Assembly (NCBI RefSeq): GCF_017873855.1
Contig: NZ_JAGGKR010000001.1
Coordinates: 620,001 to 684,000 of the forward strand
Length of the DNA: 64,000 bases
Direction: 5' to 3'
Source of the DNA: Methanolinea mesophila
GTDB lineage: Archaea; Halobacteriota; Methanomicrobia; Methanomicrobiales; Methanospirillaceae
A program made the position numbers and the translations under genes. Positions 44,588-58,663 of this stretch are shown here, in pieces (position 1 is the first letter of the stretch; every line of letters begins with the position of its first letter). The notes below the pieces were generated by a model. The model was not told the origin of the DNA. It ran no database searches and was given only the letters and a program-made list of their open reading frames with translations.

Positions 44588-47500
44588 ATGAAGCTTCGAA
44601 AGTGCTTACTCTACTGTATCGTGGTCGTAATTGCTCTTATCTGGGCTATTGCGCCCGTTTCTGCGGTGACGAATGTCATTCCGCAGGGTGGTGACGTTTT
44701 TATCGGTGAACAAGGACTTGATGTAACCGCAGCAGTGGGTGGATATTCCCAGATCGCGTGGTTCATGCAGGGAACCAACCCGAACACCGATGTACCCAAT
44801 GCAATTTACTCGGTGGGCAATCCTTCCTCGTTCTATGTCGCACCGTCAAATTTTGCGGGAAAAACCGGTACATGGTACAGGTGGGACGGTTCAAACCAGG
44901 GCCAGGCATTCAACGTGGTTGACCCGTCCCTGACCCTCCGCGTGTGGGACCAGGATACCCAGACCGAAGTTTCCGGAGCAAAAGTCCCTGTCGGGAGCAC
45001 GGAAAACTTCAGGATCGAGACCAATATGTATTCGATTGCGAGCAGGCCGGGGTTCAACCCGGTGACCGACGGGATGTTCACCATCAAGGTGCAGACCCCC
45101 GACGGCGGGATCCTGACCAGCCTGATCGACATAACCCTCCTCTATGTCAACTACCAGATACCGTTGACCAACCAAAACGTCAATTCCAACCCCTATTACT
45201 GGGTATCCACCACACCGATCGCTCCCGACTGGTATGTCGGGTGGTACACGGCGGCCATGACCACCTATACAGGGATCTCGGGGACCAGGATATATCCTGA
45301 CGGGACGTATACCGCCTGGATCGAGTGTAATGTAAACCATATCAAGGAAAACTACAACATCGAGGGTAAAACCGTCTCGATCAAGAAGACGGTGACCATC
45401 GAGTCAAGGCCGGTGAGCGTTACGGTCAACAAGGGTTCGGTGAAGAGGGGAGAGACCTTCTCCGCGACCGTCTCGGGCGACCCGTTCACCCAGTACGTGA
45501 TCTGGGTCAAATCCGGAACCTGCAGCGGGACCATGTCAGGGTATCCCTGCGACCAGCCGCCCATGATCTCCTACAACCTCCAGGAGGGTGTGATGGTAGG
45601 GACGAACGGGGACAAGTACTTCGATTGTTCGGGATGTATCAAGCAGGTCGAAGAAAATGTGCCCTTCTATCCTGACGACGGCATATGGTATTATGCGACC
45701 GTCACCACCGATGTGAACGGGACCCGTACCATCGACTGGCAGACCAGCACCGATACCAAGCCGGGGACGTATTCCATTGCGGTGGTGCCGCTGTCGAGCG
45801 GAGATACCGTGATCCCGAAGTTCACCACCATCACCGTGACCAAAGGGACCGTGACCTTTGCGGCCTACGTCTTCGGACAGCAGACCAACCAGGCATACCT
45901 GGGCGAGACCATCCGGCTCTCCGGGACCAATACCGACAGCACTACCACGTACCTGTTCATCTCCGGCCCGTGCCAGTCCTGCGCAGGATCCGACCTTGTC
46001 TATAACGACCCTGTGGTGACCGGCGAACCCTATACGTTCACCCAGGTGCCGGTACAACCCGACGGAACGTGGGAATACCTCTGGGTCACCAGGGAGAACA
46101 TGATAGACCTGGGCCAGTACTACATCTACGCATCCAGCAAGCCTGACGACCGCCAGGCCCTGGAGAACATCCAGTGCATCAACTGCAGTCCGGTCACTCC
46201 GTCGTGCGCCGCATGGACCAAGATACCCTTCGAGTTCCTCCAGCCGAAGATCACCGCGGATATCAACCCCAAGGTCCTGAAGATCGTCTGCTGCAACCCG
46301 GTGTCCATCATCGTATCGGGCAATGCAACCGGGATATGGGACTATTACTACGACGAGGAATACGAGGAGTGGGTCAAGGACCCCATCCCGATCGCATTCT
46401 GGGTATTCGGTGAGAACAAGGTCGCGGGCTCCAAGTACATCTACGACCAGATCGACGTGAACTGCCCAGACGATACGTTCTCCTTCAACCTCGCCAGCTA
46501 CTTCAACACCCTGGCGCTGCAGCCCGGGACCTACAAGGTGGTCCTCCAGCACCCGATGTACAACCACCTCCTCGACGTCATCCCCGAGGACTGGGTGTAC
46601 TACCCCACCTGGGACACCGTGTGGTCAGGAGACCCGAACAAGGAGTACGTGATCACCTCGGACCCCGTGCGGTGGAGCAAGCTCTTCCTGATCGACGGCA
46701 CCGGCAGGCTCGTGGGAATGCAGGCCTTCCAGGCACTGATCAACGGAATCGACGCCCAGAATATCGATGATACCTACCAGGTGCTCGAGTTCAAGGTCGA
46801 GAGCAACACCGCGGTCATCGCGGACTTCTCGGGCACCCCGACCACGGGAGCCAAACCGCTCACCGTGCAGTTCACCGATATCTCCACCGGTACCCCCAAC
46901 ACCTGGCTCTGGAACTTCGGCGACGGAACGACCTCGGTCCAGCAGAACCCCCTCCACACCTACCAGCTGGAAGGGTCCTACGACGTCACCCTCAGTGTGA
47001 GCAACGCAATGGGGTCGTCTACCACGACCAAGACCGATTACGTCACGGTCACCTCCGTAGGCCCGACCCCCACCCCGACCGGGACCGTCACCCCGACCCC
47101 CGGTACCAACACCATCGACCTCTGGCCCGGGTGGAACTTCGTCTCCACGCCAAAGACCCTTGCTGACGGCTACAACACCGCCTCCGAGGTCTTTGGCGGG
47201 GTGAACACCGGCGGACACTCTATTTACCTCTACGACGCAAGTACTGGTATATGGACGCAGATGATGGCCGATTCACCCGTCAAACCCCTGGACGGTATCT
47301 GGATCTACTCTACGACCACTTACCAGGTGACTCTCCACTACAAGGACGACCCCCTGGCAACACCCCCGACCAAACAGATGTATACCGGGTGGAACGCAAT
47401 AGGGTTCTCGGACACGACACAGGCCTCTGCGAAGGATACCCTGACCTCTGTGGTGGACCAGTGGTCCCAGACGATGGGATTCAATGCCGCCCTGCAGTCC

Positions 47501-47623
47501 TACGAGACCTCGATCATCAACGGCGGATCCGGCAGCCACTCGGACACCAACCCCATGTATCCCTCGAAGGGATACTGGCTCTACATGAGGGGCCCTGGGA
47601 CTCTTGCAGCGATCAGCGCATGA
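44588..47623 (+). CDS. S-layer-like secreted protein (DUF3821 type) with PKD domain
   Basis: 1011 residues. A clear signal peptide (CIVVVIALIWAIAPVSA) precedes a long extracellular part with the DUF3821 pattern found in Methanomicrobiales S-layer candidates (VIPQGGDVFIGEQGLD, GTWYRWD), continuing to about 740 with Cys pairs (CSGC, CQSC, CINC). A PKD domain sits at about 745-825. The C-terminal 165 residues contain two related PGWNFVSTP/TGWNAIGFS units. No C-terminal membrane helix is present, so retention must be by lattice or partner contacts. Strong promoter and ribosome-binding site suit an abundant envelope protein. The S-layer role is inferred. Confidence 0.8.
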   Translation: MKLRKCLLYCIVVVIALIWAIAPVSAVTNVIPQGGDVFIGEQGLDVTAAVGGYSQIAWFMQGTNPNTDVPNAIYSVGNPSSFYVAPSNFAGKTGTWYRWDGSNQGQAFNVVDPSLTLRVWDQDTQTEVSGAKVPVGSTENFRIETNMYSIASRPGFNPVTDGMFTIKVQTPDGGILTSLIDITLLYVNYQIPLTNQNVNSNPYYWVSTTPIAPDWYVGWYTAAMTTYTGISGTRIYPDGTYTAWIECNVNHIKENYNIEGKTVSIKKTVTIESRPVSVTVNKGSVKRGETFSATVSGDPFTQYVIWVKSGTCSGTMSGYPCDQPPMISYNLQEGVMVGTNGDKYFDCSGCIKQVEENVPFYPDDGIWYYATVTTDVNGTRTIDWQTSTDTKPGTYSIAVVPLSSGDTVIPKFTTITVTKGTVTFAAYVFGQQTNQAYLGETIRLSGTNTDSTTTYLFISGPCQSCAGSDLVYNDPVVTGEPYTFTQVPVQPDGTWEYLWVTRENMIDLGQYYIYASSKPDDRQALENIQCINCSPVTPSCAAWTKIPFEFLQPKITADINPKVLKIVCCNPVSIIVSGNATGIWDYYYDEEYEEWVKDPIPIAFWVFGENKVAGSKYIYDQIDVNCPDDTFSFNLASYFNTLALQPGTYKVVLQHPMYNHLLDVIPEDWVYYPTWDTVWSGDPNKEYVITSDPVRWSKLFLIDGTGRLVGMQAFQALINGIDAQNIDDTYQVLEFKVESNTAVIADFSGTPTTGAKPLTVQFTDISTGTPNTWLWNFGDGTTSVQQNPLHTYQLEGSYDVTLSVSNAMGSSTTTKTDYVTVTSVGPTPTPTGTVTPTPGTNTIDLWPGWNFVSTPKTLADGYNTASEVFGGVNTGGHSIYLYDASTGIWTQMMADSPVKPLDGIWIYSTTTYQVTLHYKDDPLATPPTKQMYTGWNAIGFSDTTQASAKDTLTSVVDQWSQTMGFNAALQSYETSIINGGSGSHSDTNPMYPSKGYWLYMRGPGTLAAISA

Positions 47624-47645
47624 TCTTCCGGGTGTCGAGGTGAAG

Positions 47646-49682
47646 ATGAACCACAAGCTCCTCATTTTTTCACTGATGCTCTGTCTGCTGGTAGGAGCTG
47701 CAGCAGCAGTACCGCCCATCCCCTGCGAGTTCTATGGCACCGTGACCCAGGGTGGCCAGCAGGCCCCGGTCGGGAGCACCATCGTCGCATATTACCATGG
47801 TACTCCGCACGGCCAGCTGGTCACGACACAGCAGGGGTTCTACGGTGGGGCAGATGCATATGCCAACCGGCTGAAGGTCACGCTTTCCGAACAGGAGATC
47901 AACGATTGCTGTTCGTCCTGCGGATGCGTCCTCCTGATCGAATTCTACATCAACGGGTACAAGGCCGACCAGACTGCCATATTCCAGTCGGGCAGCACGA
48001 TGTACCTGCCCCTTACCGCATCGGGGGCCCCGACTCCCACGGTAACGCCAACCCCCACCGTGACCGTTACCACCACGACAACGACGGTTACCCCGACAAC
48101 TACCGTTACCACCGCAACGCCTACACCCACGACGGCCACTCCCACGCCCACCACTACTACGACTACCCCGACGCCGACCACGTCTACCCCGACACCAACG
48201 ACTGCAACGCCGACACCTACCACGACTACCCAGACACCGACACCCGTCCCGTCGACGATCCCGGTCCGGCCCCACGAATTCTATGGCACGGCCGTTCTCG
48301 CGGGCGGTGAGCAGGTGCCGGCAGGGACCGAGATAGAGGCGTTCGTCGCGGGTGGCCTGACCAACGTGCAGGGGAACCCTGTCGTTGTGAGCGTACCGGG
48401 ACAGTACGGCGGCAGCAGTTCCTTCTCGCAGAGACTTGACGTGATGGGGAGCATCCAGGAGAACGCCCCGATCTCGTTCTTCATCGGAGGCGTCCGGGCC
48501 GAGGTTTACGACGTGAATGCGAGCAGCGGGTGGGTTTCAACCTACCCGTTCCACAGCGGCAGCCTCACGGAACTGAACCTGCGTACCAACATGTCCCTCC
48601 CCCAGGCCGACTTCTCCGCCACGCCGCTTGCGGGATACGAACCCCTGAAGGTCTACTTCTATGACATGTCGACCGGGATTCCGACCCACTGGGAGTGGAA
48701 CTTTGGTGACAATTCCGCGAACTCCACCCTCCAGAACCCGATGCATTCCTACTTCAACGGGGCCTACACGGTGACCCTCACAGTGAGCAATGCCGCAGGG
48801 ACCTCCACCACTACGAAGACAGGGTATATCGTGGTCTCCAAGTCGAGCAGCCCTGCCGCAGGCGGCGGTGGCGGTGGCGGCGGCGGAGGGTTCTACGCAC
48901 CCGCATCCACGGAGACCGCAACGCCGACACCCACGGTCAGCGCCACGGCGACGACCACCCCGGTCGGCCCCGCGGGAGGGACGCTGCCCCTGAACGTGGA
49001 CTACCGGCTCTCCCAGTCGGTGGTGATCGTTGCGGAGGACAATGCCGCCCAGCTCTATCTCCCCGAAGGGATGAAACCGGTCAACGCAACGGGAAGCCCG
49101 ATCTTCTCCATAACCATCGTGAGGGTGCCGGGATCGGATGTCCCGCCGGTGGCCCCCGGGGCTCCCTATACCTTTGCGGGATATGCGTACGACATCGAGC
49201 CGAGCGGTGCGAGTTTCGATCCCTACATCACCCTCTCGATCACCCTTCCGGAACAGGAATGGGCCGCATTACAGGGCGGGGACCTCTCGATAAAGTGGTA
49301 TAATACCGCGACCGGCCAGTGGGAAGACCTTCCCACCACGGTGAATGCCAACAGCCGCACGGTGAGCGCGACCATCACCCACTCCACCACCTTCGCGCTC
49401 TTCGTCCAGGGCGGGCAGACCCCGGTCCCCACCACTGTCGCAACCACCGTGATCCCCACCACTGCTGCGGTAACCGGTGACTTCACCGACCTGCTGATCA
49501 AGGTGATCATCGTCGTGATCATCATCGTCGCGGTGGCGTTCATGGCGATCTACCTCCTCCGGAGGAAAGGTAAAGAGGGCGAAGAACCGGAACCAAAGAA
49601 GGAAAAGAAGAAATTTGAGTGGAGAAAGAAGAAAGAAGAGGAAGAGCCGGACGAGGACTGGGAGATCAAGGGACTCCAGTAA
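47646..49682 (+). CDS. Anchored surface protein with two FYG modules, PKD and ZU5-like domain
   Basis: 678 residues, 22 bases after the S-layer-like gene. GAGGTG before the ATG and the signal peptide (LLIFSLMLCLLVGAAAA) support this start over a longer reading. Order: FYG-type module 1 (about 23-128, with CCSSCGC), Thr/Pro stalk, FYG-type module 2 (about 210-315), PKD (about 318-398), poly-Gly, Thr-rich linker, ZU5-like domain (about 448-590), a membrane helix (about 615-637) and a Glu/Lys-rich cytoplasmic tail of about 40 residues. Being co-transcribed and anchored, it may hold the non-anchored S-layer-like protein; that is inference. Confidence 0.82.
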   Translation: MNHKLLIFSLMLCLLVGAAAAVPPIPCEFYGTVTQGGQQAPVGSTIVAYYHGTPHGQLVTTQQGFYGGADAYANRLKVTLSEQEINDCCSSCGCVLLIEFYINGYKADQTAIFQSGSTMYLPLTASGAPTPTVTPTPTVTVTTTTTTVTPTTTVTTATPTPTTATPTPTTTTTTPTPTTSTPTPTTATPTPTTTTQTPTPVPSTIPVRPHEFYGTAVLAGGEQVPAGTEIEAFVAGGLTNVQGNPVVVSVPGQYGGSSSFSQRLDVMGSIQENAPISFFIGGVRAEVYDVNASSGWVSTYPFHSGSLTELNLRTNMSLPQADFSATPLAGYEPLKVYFYDMSTGIPTHWEWNFGDNSANSTLQNPMHSYFNGAYTVTLTVSNAAGTSTTTKTGYIVVSKSSSPAAGGGGGGGGGGFYAPASTETATPTPTVSATATTTPVGPAGGTLPLNVDYRLSQSVVIVAEDNAAQLYLPEGMKPVNATGSPIFSITIVRVPGSDVPPVAPGAPYTFAGYAYDIEPSGASFDPYITLSITLPEQEWAALQGGDLSIKWYNTATGQWEDLPTTVNANSRTVSATITHSTTFALFVQGGQTPVPTTVATTVIPTTAAVTGDFTDLLIKVIIVVIIIVAVAFMAIYLLRRKGKEGEEPEPKKEKKKFEWRKKKEEEEPDEDWEIKGLQ

Positions 49683-49982: not shown

Positions 49983-51752
49983 TTACTCCTCATCGGTGTA
50001 GTAATAGTATTCGCCGCTCGCCTTCTGTTCCCGGTCGAGGTACGACTCCGGCTTGTTGATACGGGGCCTGCCGGTCTTGTCCCTCCGGAAGGTTACCCCG
50101 AGCTCGGAGAGGAACCGGTTCATCCCTTCCCGCATATCGAACGGTCCGGTGGCCTCGCCGCTGATCCCGGGGGACCCCTCGAAGACCAGGATGCGCTCGC
50201 TGATCATGTCGATCAGGTAGATGTCGTGGTCTATCACCAGTACGGCGGCATCCTTGCCCTCGACGTGCCGTTTCAGGACCCTGGTCACCTTGACCCGCTG
50301 CTCTACGTCCAGGTGGGCGCTCGGCTCGTCGAGGATGTAGAGGTCCGCTTTCCGGGAGAGGCACGCGGCGATGGCTACCCGCTGGAGCTCGCCGCCGGAG
50401 AGGGTGTCGACCGACATCTGTAAAAGGGGCCCTATCGAGAGCGGTTCGATGATCTCGTGCTGGTAGCCCGAGGAATCGAACGACTTCGTGATGCTCCGGA
50501 GTATGAACTCGACGGTGTCCGAGCCCTGGGGCTTGATGTACTGGGGCTTGTAAGAGATGGTGACCTGCGACTCGAGCGGCCCTCCCTCGGGCTCCTCCTC
50601 CCCGGCGAGCAGCCGGGCGAAGGTGCTCTTCCCGATCCCGTTCGCGCCCACCACGCCGAGTACCTCTCCGGCCCGGATCTCGCCGCCCGACACCTCGAGC
50701 CTGAACCGGTCGTACGACTTCGCCATGCGGGGGAACTCGTAGAGCACCTGACGCTCGGAGCCCTTCTCGTGGGCCCGCTTCTCGAAGACCACCGGGTAGG
50801 GCCGGAACCTCACGTTCTCCTCGGGAAGGTACCCCTCGAGGTACTGGTTGATCCCCACCCTGACCCCCTTCGGCTGGGTGATCACCCCGAAGACCGCCGG
50901 TTTACCGTATGCCACGTGCACCGTGTCGGCGAGCATGTCGAGGATCGCGAGGTCGTGCTCGACGATCACGATGGGGCGGTGCAGGGCGAGGTCCCGGATC
51001 AGTTCCGCTGCCGCCATTCTCTGGTAGATATCGAGGAACGGGGTGATCTCGTCGAGGAAATAGAAGTCCGCCTCGCGGGAAAGACATGCGGCGATGGCAA
51101 CCCGCTGGAGCTCGCCGCCGGAGAGGGTGGTGATATCATGGTCGAGGATCGGGTCCAGGCGGAGCGCCTCGATGTACCCCTGCAGCGCACCCCGTTCGTC
51201 GGTCCCCTTAAGGAGCTCCCGGGACGAGCCGGAGAAGACCTTGGGGATAAAGTCGATATACTGAGGCTTGACGGCCACTTTGAGTTTCTTCTGGGAGACG
51301 GTCTGGAGGTAATCGAAGAGTTCCGTCCCGGTATAACGGCGGAGGATCTCCTCCCAGGCTGCCTCCCGTTCGAACTCTCCTAGGTTCGGCTTGAGCTGCC
51401 CGGACAGGATCTTCATCGCCGTGCTCTTCCCAATCCCGTTCTCCCCGAGGATCCCGGTGACCTTCCCTTCCACCGGGATGGGAAGACCGTAGAGTGCGAA
51501 TCCGTTTACCCCGTAGCGGTGTGTGGGGTGCTCGAGCTCTTCGGGAAGGCTCACGATGTCGATCGCCTCGAAGGGGCACTTTTTCACGCATATCCCGCAC
51601 CCCACGCACAACTCCTCGGAGATCACCGCCTTGCCCTCCTCGGAAAGGACGACCGTCTCGTCTCCGGTACGGACCCGGGGACAGTACGAGATGCACTCGG
51701 TCCCGCATTTCCGGGAGTGGCATCGGTCACGATGAACTACTGCAATACGCAT
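49983..51752 (-). CDS. Ribosome recycling ATPase ABCE1 (Rli1)
   Basis: 589-residue ABC protein that splits ribosomes after termination or Pelota-mediated rescue. Two [4Fe-4S] clusters are coordinated by Cys 11, 16, 20, 24 and 49, 52, 55, 59. Two nucleotide domains follow: Walker A GENGIGKST and GANGIGKST, and the signature LSGGELQRVAIAACLS in both. The Walker B region is canonical in the second (LYILDEPSAHLD), while the first reads FYFLDEITPFLD. Six bases separate it from the upstream EMC6-like gene, so they form an operon, divergent from RqcH and Pelota. Confidence 0.95.
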   Translation of the reverse strand: MRIAVVHRDRCHSRKCGTECISYCPRVRTGDETVVLSEEGKAVISEELCVGCGICVKKCPFEAIDIVSLPEELEHPTHRYGVNGFALYGLPIPVEGKVTGILGENGIGKSTAMKILSGQLKPNLGEFEREAAWEEILRRYTGTELFDYLQTVSQKKLKVAVKPQYIDFIPKVFSGSSRELLKGTDERGALQGYIEALRLDPILDHDITTLSGGELQRVAIAACLSREADFYFLDEITPFLDIYQRMAAAELIRDLALHRPIVIVEHDLAILDMLADTVHVAYGKPAVFGVITQPKGVRVGINQYLEGYLPEENVRFRPYPVVFEKRAHEKGSERQVLYEFPRMAKSYDRFRLEVSGGEIRAGEVLGVVGANGIGKSTFARLLAGEEEPEGGPLESQVTISYKPQYIKPQGSDTVEFILRSITKSFDSSGYQHEIIEPLSIGPLLQMSVDTLSGGELQRVAIAACLSRKADLYILDEPSAHLDVEQRVKVTRVLKRHVEGKDAAVLVIDHDIYLIDMISERILVFEGSPGISGEATGPFDMREGMNRFLSELGVTFRRDKTGRPRINKPESYLDREQKASGEYYYYTDEE

Positions 51753-51758
51753 ATGCGA

Positions 51759-52130
51759 TCAGATTGAGCCGGATAGCAGGAATGTCCAGATAATGAACCA
51801 GAAGGCGAACGTCATGAACCCCTGATAGAGCCAGTCCTTCTTCCCGAGCCCGGAGGTGTTCATCCGGAGCGCCATGAAGATGTGTCGCTGGACGACTATC
51901 CCGGCGAACATTATCAGCAGGCCGAGGAATGTGTAGCTGTTGAACCCGGCGATATTCTCCGGTCCTACCACGAGGTAGGAGATTATGCCGGTCACTATCC
52001 CCATCACGCAGGCGATGACGGTCCTCTGGATCCGCTCGTGCTGTTCCTTCTGCTTCTCCTGCGGAGTAAGCTTCTTTTGTCCGCTCTCTTTCTGCGGACT
52101 CTCATTTTCTTCCGGCATTTCGGCGCTCAT
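51759..52130 (-). CDS. EMC6-like membrane protein
   Basis: 123 residues: a charged Glu/Lys-rich N-terminal tail (about 45 residues), then helices at about 50-70 (VIACVMGIVTGIISYLVV), 77-95 (YTFLGLLIMFAGIVVQ) and 104-122. Size and spacing fit archaeal homologues of EMC6, a subunit of the eukaryotic ER membrane insertase complex. Start chosen at MSAEMPEEN; an upstream reading would cross into the RqcH promoter. Co-operonic with ABCE1, which hints at a link between membrane insertion and ribosome recycling. Confidence 0.75.
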   Translation of the reverse strand: MSAEMPEENESPQKESGQKKLTPQEKQKEQHERIQRTVIACVMGIVTGIISYLVVGPENIAGFNSYTFLGLLIMFAGIVVQRHIFMALRMNTSGLGKKDWLYQGFMTFAFWFIIWTFLLSGSI

Positions 52131-52186
52131 CGTGACACCAGTAGTCCTATTTTTAGGTGCTCGGGCCATATCTAATTTGGTATTAT

Positions 52187-54076
52187 ATGGCAACCATCCA
52201 GGGCATGAGCGGGATAGATATCCGCGCGGTGGTAGCGGAGCTCTCGGACCTTCTCCCGCTGTGGGTGGACAAGGCCTACCAGTTCGAGCCGAATTTTCTC
52301 GCGATCCGGTTGAACGGGCTAGAACACGCACGGTATCACCTGTTGATCGAACCCGCAAAAAGGGTGCACCTCGTCCGGTCGCTGCCCCCGCCGCCGAAGA
52401 TGCCCCCCCATTTCGCGATGCTCCTCCGGAAATATCTCTCCGGGGGGAAACTCCTCTCCGTCCGGCAGCACGGCCTCCAGAGGATCGTAATCTTCGAGAT
52501 AGGAAAAAAGGACCTCTCCTTTTTCCTTATCCTCGAACTCTTCGACCCCGGCAACGTGGTCCTCTGCGACGGGGACTTTACCATCATCAATTCGTTCTCC
52601 CACCACCGGTTCAGGGAGCGGGCGGTGGTCCCGGGGGTCCGTTACGAGCTCCCGGGCCAGGACCCTTTCACTTCGGGAGAGGAAAAGTTCTCGGAATTCC
52701 TGCGAAACGACGACCGGGACATTGTCCGGGCCCTCGCGGTGGGGGCGATGCTCGGGGGAAAATATGCGGAGTATGTCTGCGAAACGGCAGGGGTCGACAA
52801 GACTGCTCCGGCCGGGAGCGTCGATGCCGGGCCGATATATTCGGCGGTGAGCCGTCTCCTTGCCCGTGCCGAGACGGAGATATCGCCGGTGATCACCCGC
52901 GATTCGTGTCTCCCCTTCCCCCTGACCGGCATGGGCGGGCCGGGCGGACCTCGTGCGTTCAACGAGGCGCTCGAGTCGTTCTTCCCCCTGATACAAAAGC
53001 CGGAGAAGGAGACTAAGAAAGCCGAAAAGGTCTCGCGTGAAGAGCGGATCCGTCGCCAGCAGGTAGCGGCGGTAAAGAAGTTCGAGGAGAAGATCGCCAG
53101 GACCGAGCGGATCGTAGCACTGATTTACGAGAACTACCCCCTGGTGCAGGAGGTCCTCGAAAGCCTCGACCAGGCGAGTAAGAGCCGTTCCTGGCAGGAG
53201 ATCGAAGCGATATTAAAGAGCCAGACCGGGGGGCCTGCGACCAGGATCACTGCCGTTCACCCCGAGGACGCCTCGGTCGACCTTGACCTCGGTGAGCAGG
53301 TGAACCTCCGGGTCCACGAGAGCCTCGAGGCGAACGTGGGCGCCTACTACGACACTATCAAGAAATTCCGGAAGAAGATCGAGGGCGCCCGGGGGGCCAT
53401 GGCAAAGGTCCCCGAGAGGCGGGAAAAGAAATCTTCATCCTCGCCGGTGCGGAAAAAACGCTGGTTCCACAGGTTCCGGTGGTTCTATACCAGCGACGGT
53501 GTGCTGGTGCTCGGGGGAAAAGACGCCGGGCAGAACGAGGAACTGGTAAAGAAGTACATGGAGGGTGGGGACCGGTTTGTCCACGCCGACGTGCACGGGG
53601 CGAGTGTAGTGATCGTGAAGGGCAGGACGGTACGGATGGACGAGGTGGCCCAGTTCGCGGCGTCGTACTCCGGGGCCTGGAGGAGCGGGCATTTCAGCGC
53701 TGATGTCTACTCGGTCGCCCCGGACCAGGTGAGCAAAACTCCCGAATCCGGGGAGTATGTGGCAAGGGGGTCCTTTATCGTCCGGGGGGAACGGGTGTAC
53801 TACCATAACGTCCCCCTCGAAGTGGCCATAGGGCTAGAGACCAGCCCCGAACTCGGGGTCATCGGCGGGCCGCCCTCTGCGGTGAAGGAGCGGGCCTCGA
53901 ACGTGGCCGGCCTCCGCCCGGGGCAGTACGAGCCGAACGATATCGCGAAGAAAGTACTCAGGATAATCCGGGAAAGACTATCACCCCAGGAGCAGAAAGG
54001 GTTGAAAGGGGTGCTTAACACGGAGACTGTCGCGGCGTTCGTCCCCCCCGGTGGGTCGGACCTGGTGGAGCCATGA
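52187..54076 (+). CDS. rqcH: RqcH/NEMF/Rqc2 homologue (NFACT protein)
   Basis: About 630 residues. It binds split large subunits carrying stuck peptidyl-tRNA and recruits charged tRNA for C-terminal tailing in ribosome-associated quality control. Parts: NFACT-N (from SGIDIRAVVAEL), helix-hairpin-helix linker, a long coiled coil (about 285-420, ERIRRQQVAAVKKFEEKI), then NFACT-R with FRWFYTSDGVLVLGGKDAGQNE and ADVHGAS. The usual Asp-Arg pair in NFACT-N appears as Gln-Arg in RQHGLQRIV. A second ATG at 52205 (MSGIDIR) matches the family start better and may be the true one. The stop overlaps the Pelota ATG. Confidence 0.9.
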   Translation: MATIQGMSGIDIRAVVAELSDLLPLWVDKAYQFEPNFLAIRLNGLEHARYHLLIEPAKRVHLVRSLPPPPKMPPHFAMLLRKYLSGGKLLSVRQHGLQRIVIFEIGKKDLSFFLILELFDPGNVVLCDGDFTIINSFSHHRFRERAVVPGVRYELPGQDPFTSGEEKFSEFLRNDDRDIVRALAVGAMLGGKYAEYVCETAGVDKTAPAGSVDAGPIYSAVSRLLARAETEISPVITRDSCLPFPLTGMGGPGGPRAFNEALESFFPLIQKPEKETKKAEKVSREERIRRQQVAAVKKFEEKIARTERIVALIYENYPLVQEVLESLDQASKSRSWQEIEAILKSQTGGPATRITAVHPEDASVDLDLGEQVNLRVHESLEANVGAYYDTIKKFRKKIEGARGAMAKVPERREKKSSSSPVRKKRWFHRFRWFYTSDGVLVLGGKDAGQNEELVKKYMEGGDRFVHADVHGASVVIVKGRTVRMDEVAQFAASYSGAWRSGHFSADVYSVAPDQVSKTPESGEYVARGSFIVRGERVYYHNVPLEVAIGLETSPELGVIGGPPSAVKERASNVAGLRPGQYEPNDIAKKVLRIIRERLSPQEQKGLKGVLNTETVAAFVPPGGSDLVEP

Positions 54077-55098
54077 AAGCGGAACGGGGTGAACTGCAAA
54101 GATCATGCGGGGAGATCCGGATCTTCCCGGAGAGTATCGACGATCTTTGGCATCTGGAGCACCTGGTCGGCCCGGGCGACCTTGTCTTTGCCACCACCCT
54201 TCGCACCGTCGAGGGGGAGACCGACAAGCTCCGTCCTGAAAAGCTCGAAAAGAAGCCGGTCAGGCTCGGGATCAGGATAGAGCGGGTAGAGTTCCACAAG
54301 TACGCCCTCCGCCTCCGGCTCACCGGGATAATCGAACACGGGATCGAAACCGGCTCCTACCATACCCTGAACATCGAGCCCGGTTACGAGCTCTCGGTGA
54401 TAAAGTGCTGGCGACCGGTCGACCTGGAACGGATAGAGCGGGCGATACGGGCCTCGGTCCAGGAAGTGCCCCATATCCTCACCATCGAGGAGGGGGAAGC
54501 AGAGCTCTTTCGCATCCGCCAGTTCGGGCCCGAAGGGGTGGTCACCATCACCTCGGGGAGCGGGAAAGAGGACGATTCGGGCGGGAGAACGGATTTCTTC
54601 TCCCGGGTGGCTGATCACCTGAAGGACGTCAGGGGGCCCCTGATCATCGCAGGTCCGGGATTTGTCAAGGAAGACCTGATGAAATACCTCCGCGGATCTC
54701 ATCCGGACCTTGCCGCGAGGGTGATGATCATCGATACGCGGAGGATCGGACGGGGTGCAGTACAGGAGGCGATCGGGCAGGGGGTTCTTGAACGGGTGTA
54801 CCAGGATCTCCAGCTCGGGAGGGAGGTCCGGTGCATGGATGACCTCCTTAAAAGGATCGCCTGCGGCGAGCCCGCGGCTTATGGAAAGGCCGAGGTATCG
54901 AGGGCAGTGGAATACGGGGCCGTGGAGGAGCTGTTCGTTGCCGACTCCCTCCTCCGCGATCCCGAGACGCAGCACCTTATCGAGCGTGCAGAACTCCTCG
55001 GATCCGGCATCGTGGTCTTTTCCACCGAGTTCGAACCCGGCGCTCAGCTCGAGTCCCTCGGGGGCGTGGCTGCGCTCCTGCGATACAGAATAGAATAA
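54073..55098 (+). CDS. pelA: Pelota/Dom34, stalled-ribosome rescue factor
   Basis: 341 residues, archaeal Pelota. It enters the A site of stalled ribosomes, with aEF1A as delivery factor, and promotes splitting by ABCE1. Domain A (1-130) includes DDLWHLEHLVGPGDLV and the RIERVEFHKY strand; the central domain contains GPGFVKEDLMKYL; the C-terminal eL30-like domain contains AVEYGAVEELFVADSLLRD. The ATGA overlap with rqcH means tightly coupled expression, and ABCE1 lies just across the divergent promoter. Confidence 0.95.
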   Translation: MKAERGELQRSCGEIRIFPESIDDLWHLEHLVGPGDLVFATTLRTVEGETDKLRPEKLEKKPVRLGIRIERVEFHKYALRLRLTGIIEHGIETGSYHTLNIEPGYELSVIKCWRPVDLERIERAIRASVQEVPHILTIEEGEAELFRIRQFGPEGVVTITSGSGKEDDSGGRTDFFSRVADHLKDVRGPLIIAGPGFVKEDLMKYLRGSHPDLAARVMIIDTRRIGRGAVQEAIGQGVLERVYQDLQLGREVRCMDDLLKRIACGEPAAYGKAEVSRAVEYGAVEELFVADSLLRDPETQHLIERAELLGSGIVVFSTEFEPGAQLESLGGVAALLRYRIE

Positions 55099-55318
55099 AG
55101 GTCACCGCGAAAAACCTGGACGGGTCACGTAGGACTCCGGTCAATTTCGGACATAACTGGACACCGGAGCGCCACATTTCCCGGGCGCCGTCCCGCGGGG
55201 AGCGTCCCGGCTGTACAGGGAGAAAACCGGGGACCGGGGCGGAGATGGACTCCCGGATCCCGGACTATGCAGCGGTTTCACAGAAAGCCTCATTACCCCG
55301 TATCGGAATATCCCTGAT

Positions 55319-55468
55319 ATGCTTCGGCACGAGTGCGGATACGAGCAGGATATCATCTGCCGGCGGTGCGGCAACTCCATGATCTACAATAAAAGACTGG
55401 GCCTCTACTGCCCGAAGTGCGGGCATGAAACGACCCTTCTCTGTCCGGGCTGCGGCAAGAAGTGGTAA
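55319..55468 (+). CDS. 49-residue zinc-ribbon protein
   Basis: Small gene starting MLRHECGYEQ and ending CGKKW. It has three CxxC knuckles (C14/C17, C31/C34, C42/C45) plus His4/Cys6, enough for one or two zinc sites. It stops three bases before the end of the convergent DUF1922 gene. No family recognised; the density and order of the Cys pairs make chance unlikely. Transcript start and ribosome-binding site are unclear. It could serve the neighbouring ribosome-rescue genes. Confidence 0.6.
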   Translation: MLRHECGYEQDIICRRCGNSMIYNKRLGLYCPKCGHETTLLCPGCGKKW

Positions 55469-55471
55469 CGG

Positions 55472-55738
55472 CTATGCGCCGCTTCGCAGCCACTGCGCGT
55501 ACTGTTTTCGCAGGGAATCGAGCTCTTCCCTGGTCAGGTCCTTCTTTTTCGTGCGGTGGAGGTGTTCCTCGAGCTGCGCCACCACGCTCTCGGCGACGCG
55601 ATAGTCCTCCACCTCGAGATATACCGTGGCCCTGCGGACATCGATGGTCTCCCCGCAGTTCGCGCAGAGCTTCCACTGCTGGAAACGGTCCACATACGTG
55701 AATGTCCTGCACCCTCCGCAGCGGATAACCAGGTACAT
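55472..55738 (-). CDS. DUF1922 zinc-ribbon protein
   Basis: 88 residues starting MYLVIRCGGCRTFTYV. The N-terminal zinc ribbon uses CGGC and CANC; the C-terminal half is a basic helix (LHRTKKKDLTREELDSLRKQYAQWL). It matches the archaeal DUF1922 family (MTH1184 type), whose function is unknown. The start is supported by a strong TATA box placing transcription close to the ATG. Longer in-frame readings upstream overlap cofE and are not expected. Confidence 0.8.
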   Translation of the reverse strand: MYLVIRCGGCRTFTYVDRFQQWKLCANCGETIDVRRATVYLEVEDYRVAESVVAQLEEHLHRTKKKDLTREELDSLRKQYAQWLRSGA

Positions 55739-56968: not shown

Positions 56969-58663
56969 ATGAGCAGAAATACTTACGGTTTTATCGCATT
57001 TCTGGCGATTCTCCTGTCATGTGCGGTGGCGCCCGCGATGGCAGCCGGCAGTTCTTCCACCCCGGTGCTCCCGCACGTCTTTTTCGGAACGGTTGCCGTC
57101 GATGGATTACCCGCTCCCGTGGGGACGGAGATCACTGCCGTGGTCCAGGGGGGCGGAGGTTCCATCGTGAGCGATGCAACAGGGTGGTACGGGTACAGGA
57201 GTCCGTTCGCGCAAAAACTAATCGTCCAGGGTGACATCCCGAGCGGTGCTCCTATCACGTTCTATGTCAACGGCGAACAGGCCGAATGTATCGCCGAGGG
57301 TACCGGGGGGAGCTGGCAGGGCACGTATCCCTTCACCCCGGGCGAGGTTACCGAGCTCGATCTCAGGGTAGGATGCGCCCCGCCGATCGCGGATTTTACT
57401 GCCGATCCGACCTCGGGCGATACACCCCTGACCGTACAATTCAATGACGCGTCCTTTGGAAACCCGACCGCGTGGTCGTGGACCTTCGGTGACGGCACCT
57501 CCTCGACGCTCCGGAACCCTGTCCATACCTACGCCGATGCGGGCAACTACGTGGTCAGCCTGAACGTCACGAATGACTGTGGATCGGACCCCATCACCAG
57601 GACAGGGTTTATCAGCGCCGTGTCGGACCCCCCGCCCGTTGCAGACTTTACTGCCAACACCACCTCGGGGACCGCCCCCCTGACCGTAGGATTCACCGAC
57701 ACCTCGCTCAACTTGCCTGCCGCCTGGTCCTGGACCTTCGGTGACGGGAGCTCCTCGACGCTCCGGAACCCCGTCCATACCTATGCCGCTCCCGGGAACT
57801 ACACCGTCAGCCTGGAAGTCTCCAACGGCGACGGGTCGGACCGTATCACCAGGACAGGGTTCATCGCCGTAGATTCCAACCCTCCCCCGGTTGCAGACTT
57901 CACGGCCAACGTAACATCCGGGGCTGTACCCCTGACTATCAGGTTCACCGACACCTCGCTCAATTCGCCCACCGCCTGGTCCTGGACCTTCGGTGACGGG
58001 AGCTCCTCGACGCTTCGGAACCCCGTCCATACCTATGCCGCTCCCGGGAACTACACCGTCAGCCTGACCGCGAGCAACTCAGTCGGCAGCGTGACGGTCT
58101 CCAGGCCGGGGTACATCGTTGTCGTACAACCCCTATCGGACGCTGATTTCTCGGTATCACCCGTATCGGGCATCGTACCGCTGACGGTCTACTTCACCGA
58201 TCTTTCGGGGGGACACCCTCTACGCTGGACATATAATTTCGGCGACGGGTTCACCTCGTCGTCAAAGAACCCCCGGCATACCTACCTCACGCCCGGAAAT
58301 TACACCGTCACTCTGACGATCCTGAAGATAGAGGGCGGGAAGTTGGTGAAGAGCACCATAGAAAAACAAGAGGTCGTCAAAGCCGGTGGCGGGCAGGACT
58401 CCGGGTTCATTGCAAATTTCACGGCCGTGCCGATATCCGGACCGGCACCGTTGTCGGTCGCATTCACCGACTGTTCGACCGGAAACCCCCGGTTCTGGAA
58501 ATACGACTTCGGTGACGGGTTGACCTCGACCTCACGCAATCCCGTGCACCGGTATAGAGCACCGGGCACCTATACCGTAACGCTCACCATCACGGAGATC
58601 CAGGGACGGAGTTTCCTGAAGAACTCCACCGTAATGAAAGACCTGATCACCGTTGGGCCCTGA
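56969..58663 (+). CDS. Secreted protein with FYG module and five PKD domains
   Basis: 564 residues. Signal peptide (GFIAFLAILLSCAVAPAMA), one FYG-type module (about 32-135), then five PKD domains starting near 138, 222, 309, 390 and 485. PKD 2 and 3 are nearly identical in DNA over about 95 bases, marking a recent internal duplication. The chain ends right after the fifth PKD with no membrane helix or Gly/Thr stalk, unlike the relatives at 2911, 40375 and 47646, so it is probably released or bound by other envelope proteins. Confidence 0.83.
   Translation: MSRNTYGFIAFLAILLSCAVAPAMAAGSSSTPVLPHVFFGTVAVDGLPAPVGTEITAVVQGGGGSIVSDATGWYGYRSPFAQKLIVQGDIPSGAPITFYVNGEQAECIAEGTGGSWQGTYPFTPGEVTELDLRVGCAPPIADFTADPTSGDTPLTVQFNDASFGNPTAWSWTFGDGTSSTLRNPVHTYADAGNYVVSLNVTNDCGSDPITRTGFISAVSDPPPVADFTANTTSGTAPLTVGFTDTSLNLPAAWSWTFGDGSSSTLRNPVHTYAAPGNYTVSLEVSNGDGSDRITRTGFIAVDSNPPPVADFTANVTSGAVPLTIRFTDTSLNSPTAWSWTFGDGSSSTLRNPVHTYAAPGNYTVSLTASNSVGSVTVSRPGYIVVVQPLSDADFSVSPVSGIVPLTVYFTDLSGGHPLRWTYNFGDGFTSSSKNPRHTYLTPGNYTVTLTILKIEGGKLVKSTIEKQEVVKAGGGQDSGFIANFTAVPISGPAPLSVAFTDCSTGNPRFWKYDFGDGLTSTSRNPVHRYRAPGTYTVTLTITEIQGRSFLKNSTVMKDLITVGP

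Follow-up and report, generated by a model that had tools for sequence, protein, structure and literature searches.

An EMC6-like gene linked to ABCE1 and to an RqcH-Pelota gene pair around a 56-bp intergenic region in Methanolinea mesophila

Archaeal proteins resembling EMC6, a subunit of the eukaryotic endoplasmic reticulum membrane protein complex (EMC), have been treated in an account that we take to be by Lewis and Hegde. The relevant passages of that account (PMC8675477) propose that archaeal EMC6-like proteins, MJ0606 among them, pair with YidC, and remark that the archaeal EMC6-like gene lies away from the SecY/YidC/ribosomal cluster. Eukaryotic relatives of EMC6 partner insertases of the Oxa1 family (passages of PMC8675477 and PMC9630114), and translating ribosomes co-purify with TMCO1 and OPTI (a passage of PMC9630114). 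Here, we analyzed a window of 64,000 nt from Methanolinea mesophila (contig NZ_JAGGKR010000001.1, positions 620,001 to 684,000), in which an EMC6-like gene lies in one island with the genes of ABCE1, RqcH and Pelota. ABCE1 acts on all ribosomes, and Pelota and RqcH act on stalled ones. These genes are ordinary; the way they are arranged is non-random. Three features appear to be new: an EMC6-ABCE1 operon found across the phylum, a pairing of EMC6 with RqcH that has a wider range, and a locus-specific, presumed promoter element shared by the two pairs. The literature searched, with most subscription papers outside its coverage, contained no report of EMC6-ABCE1, EMC6-RqcH or RqcH-Pelota linkages and no functional test of an archaeal EMC6-like protein, and the term "EMC6" is absent from the main text of PMC6514570, PMC6393860 and PMC5898192. 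The recurrent linkage hints at a coupling of ribosome clearance with membrane-protein insertion. We infer a functional coupling of EMC6 with recycling and rescue factors from gene neighbourhoods, and consider it an even bet that the factors for ribosome splitting and large-subunit clearance work on the same membrane-docked particle as an insertase does, with two overlapping, competing promoters packed into 56 bp.

Conserved linkage of EMC6, ABCE1, RqcH and Pelota genes

All five genes listed in a first-pass annotation of the window are present at the positions given there. ABCE1, EMC6, RqcH and Pelota scored above their family cut-offs, which bears out the identities that the annotation gave them. 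ABCE1 matched NF009945 at 917 bits (cut-off 469) and has the ABCE1/Rli1 architecture, with Fer4_RLI (PF04068, 43 bits, cut-off 23) and two ABC_tran stretches; its nearest solved structures are archaeal and eukaryotic ABCE1. The EMC6-like protein matched the archaeal model EMC6_arch (PF19094) at 101.4 bits (cut-off 26.7). RqcH, of the RqcH/NEMF family, matched NF041120 at 668 bits (cut-off 400) with NFACT_N (PF05833) and NFACT-R_1 (PF05670) above cut-off, and Pelota/Dom34 matched TIGR00111 at 281 bits (cut-off 177.65) with eRF1_1 and eRF1_3 above cut-off and eRF1_2 below it (19.9 vs 27.1). The ATGA overlap of RqcH and Pelota described earlier is visible in the sequence, the Pelota start at 54073 falling within the end of RqcH. 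The annotation had ABCE1 diverging from EMC6 across a 56-base promoter, and this is wrong: both genes lie on the minus strand, EMC6 first, with a gap of 6 nt. A 56-base gap between divergent starts does exist (52131-52186), separating EMC6 from RqcH rather than from ABCE1.

Conservation was surveyed in regions of up to 18 kb around EMC6 from 80 genomes with a PF19094 match (about one per genus, few-contig genomes preferred), comprising 33 loci from the order Methanomicrobiales (hereafter the order) and 47 from the rest of the same phylum; with the window, there are 81 loci, 34 of them from the order. PF19094 itself has matches in every one of the 30 order genera examined (114/120 genomes) and, across the phylum, in 84/85 genera (193/196 genomes). 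In the same locus, ABCE1 lies downstream of EMC6 on the same strand in 33/33 order loci and 41/47 loci from the rest of the phylum, so the adjacency is not limited to one genome; a limitation of that kind is what the annotation had named as fatal to its idea. The median gap is 6 nt in the order and 14 nt outside it, and 32/33 and 37/41 gaps, respectively, fall within -30 to 100 nt (the two genes are 2.2 kb apart in locus L113). When open reading frames (ORFs) of the 81 loci were clustered, 43 of the 47 non-order loci contained the EMC6 cluster and 42 the ABCE1 cluster, and the next commonest family outside the four genes occurred in 12/47 (17/34 in the order, window included); the value of 12/47 is a lower bound because clustering under-recovers diverged families (RqcH was found in 24/34 order loci, vs 34 by profile).

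A second set consisted of the best 80 named loci matching an ABCE1 alignment. Among these, the ABCE1 sequences closest to that of the window (host genome, 2.66 Mb) come from two metagenome-assembled genomes (MAGs) titled Methanomicrobiales archaeon (84.6 and 82.8% identity), followed by a Methanoregulaceae MAG. Both EMC6 and ABCE1 were found in 42 of these 80 loci, including Methanoregula, Methanoculleus, Methanoperedens, Methanohalophilus, Geoglobus, Haloferax and Halorubrum. Haloferax has two loci with the pair, and Haloferax volcanii and Methanosarcina acetivorans both have the EMC6 family. In Ca. Methanofastidiosum (L160), which we take to lie outside the phylum under GTDB, the two genes are 19 nt apart (PF19094, 30.4 bits). 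In L146 (8578-8979), a small ORF for a membrane protein, ending 3 nt before ABCE1 begins, has an EMC6-like C-terminus at 6.6 bits and is doubtful; RqcH lies divergent there, past a gene that is CBS-like by eye. A sample centred on Ca. Methanofastidiosum, with PF19094 in 4/61 and 1 above cut-off, gives little information on linkage there. No EMC6-ABCE1 pair was detected in the other 38 of the best 80 named loci, of which 18 are titled Thermococcus/Thermococcales, Thermoplasmata/Thermoplasmatota, Thermoprotei/Thermoproteota or Bathyarchaeota/Bathycorpusculum, 7 are titled just Euryarchaeota archaeon, and 4 are phylum members by title (L141, L190, L194 and L206). The upstream gene is cut off in L141 and L181, since both loci begin within 15 bases of ABCE1. 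PF19094 reached E values up to 0.01 in 16 of the 38 genomes (above cut-off in 10), so an unrecognised EMC6 may be linked in some of these loci.

This pattern could also result if EMC6, ABCE1 and RqcH were each needed in proportion to ribosome number and their neighbourhood were kept for dosage, without mechanistic contact. Such an explanation is possible, if rather unlikely. It would fit the service of ABCE1 to all ribosomes, the absence of a visible link in the 38 named loci (the genes lie apart in, e.g., genomes G281, G291 and G314) and the fact that a tight operon is conserved, yet no domain fusion between these proteins was noticed. Many other genes scale with ribosome number as well, however, and the low frequency of the next neighbour family and the repeated placement of EMC6, in distantly related lineages, next to two factors that act at one step of the pathway speak against it.

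The second pair, RqcH-Pelota, is co-directional in 33/33 order loci, with an overlap in 28. Both genes are present in 47/47 genomes from the rest of the phylum, and by coordinates a same-strand Pelota comes after RqcH at a distance of up to 3 kb in 30/47 and of up to 500 nt in 19/47. In other lineages, where loci of the wider RqcH set were seen with flanks of 1.5 kb, Pelota lies directly after RqcH in L280, L282 and L283.

The two pairs are joined in 33/33 order loci, head to head in 31 and co-directional in 2 (L064 and L065), with 4.8 kb between EMC6 and RqcH in L050. In the full order sample, 113 genomes had both EMC6 and RqcH matches, and in 113/113 these lie on the same contig within about 5 kb. 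EMC6 and RqcH are also head to head in 7/47 loci from the rest of the phylum (L081, L085, L088, L091, L094, L097 and L105); Pelota is present as well in six of the seven (1.5-1.9 kb away in L091 and L105). A concatenated ABCE1-RqcH tree puts these seven loci in three places outside the order. On 77 tips, the head-to-head arrangement requires 6 Fitch changes, vs a mean of 26 with shuffled labels, with an uncertain root; this shows clustering, not direction, that is, not whether the arrangement is ancestral or of repeated origin.

A wider RqcH set comprised 30 loci with the RqcH N-terminus, 27 of them with room upstream, mostly from other phyla (L278 is from an anaerobic methanotroph, ANME-1, genome). 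A small divergent ORF with 2-3 helices lies beside RqcH in 10/27, whereas small divergent membrane ORFs were seen beside 20/213 long ORFs (wider and named loci) and 1/31 ABCE1 genes; the excess has a Fisher p of 4e-4 against long ORFs and 0.0016 against ABCE1, the ORFs not being independent. Eight of the ten are EMC6-like: L273, L274 and L285 (Bathyarchaeota titles), L284 (Thermoprotei), L291 (Desulfurococcales), L294 (Methanomethylicus), L298 and L217. L294 matches the eukaryotic-type EMC6 model PF07019 (33.9 bits, cut-off 23.3), L217 matches PF19094 (31.2 bits, cut-off 26.7), and L284 comes near at 23.0. The remaining five are below both cut-offs. Compared jointly with an EMC6 profile of the window family, these five gave an E value of 7.6e-7 (probability 92), and four of them alone gave 2.6e-6 (reversed, 0.011); as controls, all eight reversed gave 0.021 and five column shuffles gave 0.05-0.5. 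The five matched the three recognised RqcH-linked ORFs at 3e-12 (reversed, 0.0016). The other two small membrane ORFs divergent from RqcH were rejected, L296 having no EMC6 match in Pfam and L278 resembling antisense noise by eye.

Chance adjacency, or slow loss of an ancestral gene order without selection, is very improbable as a source of these linkages. Gene order is indeed common to related genomes, and small membrane ORFs beside genes are not rare, as the rate beside long ORFs indicates. The surrounding order has largely changed in the same 47 loci in which the EMC6-ABCE1 pair was kept in 41, however, and both the excess on the RqcH side and the fixed spacing of the non-coding DNA conserved between the pairs would be hard to obtain in this way.

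The linkage of EMC6 to RqcH extends past one lineage (31/33, 7/47 and 8/27, the last by profile similarity with two above a Pfam cut-off) and spans a wider range than that to ABCE1. The idea that EMC6 follows ABCE1 alone was dropped since EMC6 and RqcH adjoin in G290 and G291, plus further cases. The annotation had proposed a ribosome quality control (RQC) module that includes a membrane-insertion factor. Since EMC6 neighbours the splitting factor ABCE1 in one phylum and RqcH over a wider range, this idea gains support. Its narrower form, in which EMC6 is specific to the quality control of stalled membrane-protein synthesis together with RqcH and Pelota, is quite unlikely: all sampled order loci have the four genes together and the RqcH link has the wider range, but the fetched region lacks RqcH for 34 of the 41 EMC6-ABCE1 pairs found outside the order, so that within the phylum EMC6 goes mostly with the factor for general recycling and is not linked solely to RQC factors. 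Taken together, the observation in the annotation is partly confirmed and its interpretation partly supported. Each of the two links of EMC6, to ABCE1 and to RqcH, directs attention to the large subunit once the ribosome has been split.

Table 1. Features of the island (positions count from the first nucleotide of the window)
Feature	Position	Strand	Remarks
ABCE1/Rli1, ribosome-splitting ATPase, 589 aa	49983-51752	-	downstream member of the EMC6-ABCE1 pair
Archaeal EMC6-like membrane protein, 123 aa, three predicted helices	51759-52130	-	upstream member of the EMC6-ABCE1 pair
Divergent regulatory region, 56 bp	52131-52186	none	bounded by the start codons of EMC6 and RqcH
TATTTTTA, presumed TATA box for RqcH-Pelota transcription	52148-52155	+	centred ~35 nt ahead of the RqcH ATG; T/A run whose spacing is rigid among aligned order sequences; putative role
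Conserved 18-mer, plus strand CCATATCTAATTTGGTAT, minus strand ATACCAAATTAGATATGG	52166-52183	-	presumed BRE/TATA of the EMC6-ABCE1 promoter; putative role
RqcH/NEMF-family ribosome quality-control factor, 629 aa	52187-54076	+	alternative ATG at 52205
Gln98 codon of RqcH, at the Asp position of the DR motif (QR for DR)	52478-52480	+	from alignments including NEMF, Rqc2 and B. subtilis RqcH
Pelota/aDom34, 341 aa	54073-55098	+	ATGA overlap with RqcH
Zinc-ribbon protein, 49 aa	55319-55468	+	probably outside the module; 4/81 loci

The EMC6-like protein and the RqcH tRNA-selecting motif

An AlphaFold2 model of the EMC6-like protein (40 aligned sequences) has three helices, 23-55, 66-87 and 97-122, with a mean predicted local distance difference test (pLDDT) score of 82 and a predicted template modelling (pTM) score of 0.68. 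The best Foldseek row is an EMC chain with an E value of 1.8, which is not significant. In the VIA comparison, chains of the yeast and human EMC fill seven of the top eight rows and a multipass-translocon chain fills the other, with Z scores of 8.3-10.0, values below 13 being weak for helical bundles; the next row, an unrelated protein, has a Z score of 6.6. The root-mean-square deviation is 2.7-3.1 in seven of the top rows and 9.3 in one. A search of solved structures with the EMC6 alignment found no relative, its one row being an NADH dehydrogenase chain at an E value of 2.3. An EMC3/TMCO1-type gene lies ~460 kb away in the same genome (PF01956, 149.5 bits) and is present in 25 of 26 genomes, this one included; its product is the likely partner of the EMC6-like protein.

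Longer EMC6-type frames were also seen. Ten matches (L216, L218, L220-L226 and L229) fall within open frames 229-407 aa long, and each of the six inspected continues into a non-membrane C-terminal part; the genomes concerned have Thermoplasmata, Thermoplasmatota, Methanomassiliicoccales or Euryarchaeota in their titles. The EMC6-like frames of L136, L172 and L274 have C-terminal extensions that resemble extracellular domains, weakly SpaA-like in L274.

The RqcH of the window has Gln-Arg in place of the canonical tRNA-selecting Asp-Arg (DR) motif. In 76 order RqcH sequences (4 of them second copies from genomes already counted), the Asp position is occupied by E in 49, Q in 26 and S in 1, and in the rest of the phylum it is D in 47/47. 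Among 31 further rows (L146 and L275 being one genome), D occurs in 20 and E in 10, with the region missing in 1; glutamate is therefore not limited to the order, and among these rows Q and S were seen only in the order. The Arg of the motif is kept wherever the region is present. The N-terminal Asp, which we take to correspond to Asp9 of yeast Rqc2, is kept in 76/76 order sequences. Bacillus subtilis RqcH contacts G35 of the tRNA through its DR motif, and a double mutant of the motif loses its specificity for tRNA-Ala (passages of PMC8373112). The replaced motif makes archaeal tailing testable in natural variants.

The 56-bp intergenic region and the flanking genes

In most of the order, an ungapped composite lies upstream of RqcH, consisting of an A/T run, TATTTTTTA, whose centre lies ~36 nt ahead of the ATG, plus CCATATGTAATTTGGTAT at a fixed spacing. 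The 18-mer of the window matches the order consensus at 17/18 positions and is the sole site in the window at up to 2 mismatches and in its own genome at up to 1. Upstream of RqcH in 46 order loci, the best 18-mer copy matches at least 14 of 18 positions in 30, 12-13 in 4 and fewer than 12 in 12; the level of at least 14 was reached by 0.09% of base shuffles, by 0/46 regions upstream of Pelota and by 0/46 upstream of ABCE1. A degenerate form of the 18-mer, allowing up to one mismatch, occurred at 31 sites in 26 of 41 genomes. Of these sites, 25 are at the EMC6-RqcH junction (23 by coordinates and 2 by the loci L335 and L336) and 6, each with one mismatch, are elsewhere, vs 5 for a reversed control pattern. 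The 18-mer thus behaves as a locus-specific cis element, since most sites are at the junction and the rest are near the control level; for the same reason, it was rejected as a regulon motif.

Where an insert separates the 18-mer from RqcH (L052 and L139), or RqcH is 4.8 kb off (L050), the 18-mer stays at EMC6 with 16-17/18 matches, and in the co-directional loci (L064, L065, L133, L135, L137 and L138) it is degraded to 9-13/18. Read on the EMC6 strand, ATACCAAATTACATATGG is a plausible transcription factor B recognition element (BRE) plus TATA box. A sigma-70-type promoter scan was uninformative for archaeal DNA. Archaeal TATA boxes lie ~25 nt before the transcription start. Each presumed TATA box would fall at the start site of the other promoter, and competition between the two operons is therefore predicted: the 56 bp would hold two overlapping core promoters, initiation in one direction would compete with the other, and this competition may set the balance between recycling and rescue factors.

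The zinc-ribbon gene that the annotation had counted in the island is probably not part of the module and is a lineage-specific neighbour. One weak Pfam model, A2L, is above cut-off (23.3 bits, cut-off 22.9), and a profile search found the gene in 4/81 loci, in 4/4 beside a DUF1922-like gene and in one (L048) beyond ABCE1 instead of by Pelota; on these results it was rejected as a module member. In the window (55319-55738), it and a convergent gene for a DUF1922-like zinc protein form a pair that, independently of Pelota, recurs in a small number of genomes. The island is flanked at 44588-49682 and 56969-58663 by large proteins that by eye appear to be secreted and to carry PKD-like repeats.

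A possible ribosome-clearance role and its relation to known systems

According to our preferred reading, two conserved end-of-translation gene pairs would share one compact divergent promoter region. The first would supply the splitting ATPase and a small membrane partner of an archaeal YidC/EMC3-type insertase, which by analogy would sit at the exit tunnel of the large subunit; the second would detect stalled ribosomes and process the peptidyl-tRNA left on the large subunit. ABCE1, with Pelota upon stalling, would remove the small subunit at a membrane-docked ribosome, and the large subunit, with or without a chain, would then be released or passed to RqcH at the insertase. As the insertase would be the place where the large subunit remains after splitting, we propose that the membrane partner, the splitter and the chain processor are for this reason made together.

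Several observations weigh against this reading. The EMC6-ABCE1 linkage is almost confined to one phylum, with one clear case outside it (L160) and one doubtful case (L146) among the loci listed. Within the phylum, the pair is missing in six of 47 loci (L084, L090, L096, L109, L110 and L116), and ABCE1 is encoded elsewhere in each of these genomes, the copy in G221 with an in-frame TGA. RqcH is not near EMC6 in 40/47 loci from the rest of the phylum, and no small membrane ORF was found beside RqcH in 17/27 loci of the wider set. As for the shared element, it is absent outside the order, where 8 loci score 7-11 of 18, and weak or absent upstream of RqcH in 16/46 order loci; in the head-to-head loci L055, L060, L073, L078 and L080, the best copy in the whole gap has 10-12/18 matches. 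The 18-mer counts are also partly circular because the consensus was picked by eye from the same loci, and the promoter assignments draw on a general archaeal TATA spacing.

A bolder version can also be formulated, which we consider speculative and unlikely. The EMC6-YidC insertase would be an archaea-wide dock for ribosome clearance, older than the eukaryotic EMC, that holds large subunits while ABCE1 and Pelota split and RqcH finishes the chain; the order would use the 56 bp as mutually exclusive promoters, and an RqcH with a shifted choice of tRNA. If this is true, the tails added by order RqcH may not be alanine. The ABCE1 operon and the RqcH pairing in any case give the archaeal EMC6-like protein a concrete, testable context in tractable species, one that bears on the origin of the eukaryotic EMC, GET (guided entry of tail-anchored proteins) and TMCO1 systems beside the translating ribosome.

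Four known systems can be compared with this locus. MJ0606 is named as an EMC6 homologue in PMC8675477, and a gene for its type of partner is also present in the genome of the window, whereas the passages on MJ0606 in that account make no mention of ABCE1 or RqcH. With EMC6/EMC3 and OPTI/TMCO1 (the GET- and EMC-like, GEL, complex), the window protein can be compared through its predicted three-helix model, whose best VIA rows, at Z scores weak for helical bundles, are EMC and multipass-translocon chains, and through the EMC3/TMCO1-type gene in its genome; it differs in fitting the archaeal EMC6 model and not PF07019 (11.8 vs a cut-off of 23.3), and in the linkage of its gene to ABCE1 and RqcH. 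The RqcH of the window has the NFACT-N plus NFACT-R architecture of bacterial RqcH and eukaryotic NEMF/Rqc2, but ER, QR or SR stands for DR in 76/76 order sequences. Finally, both proteins of the ABCE1/Rli1-Pelota splitting system are encoded here, above their family cut-offs, but their genes belong to two divergent operons arranged around one short intergenic region.

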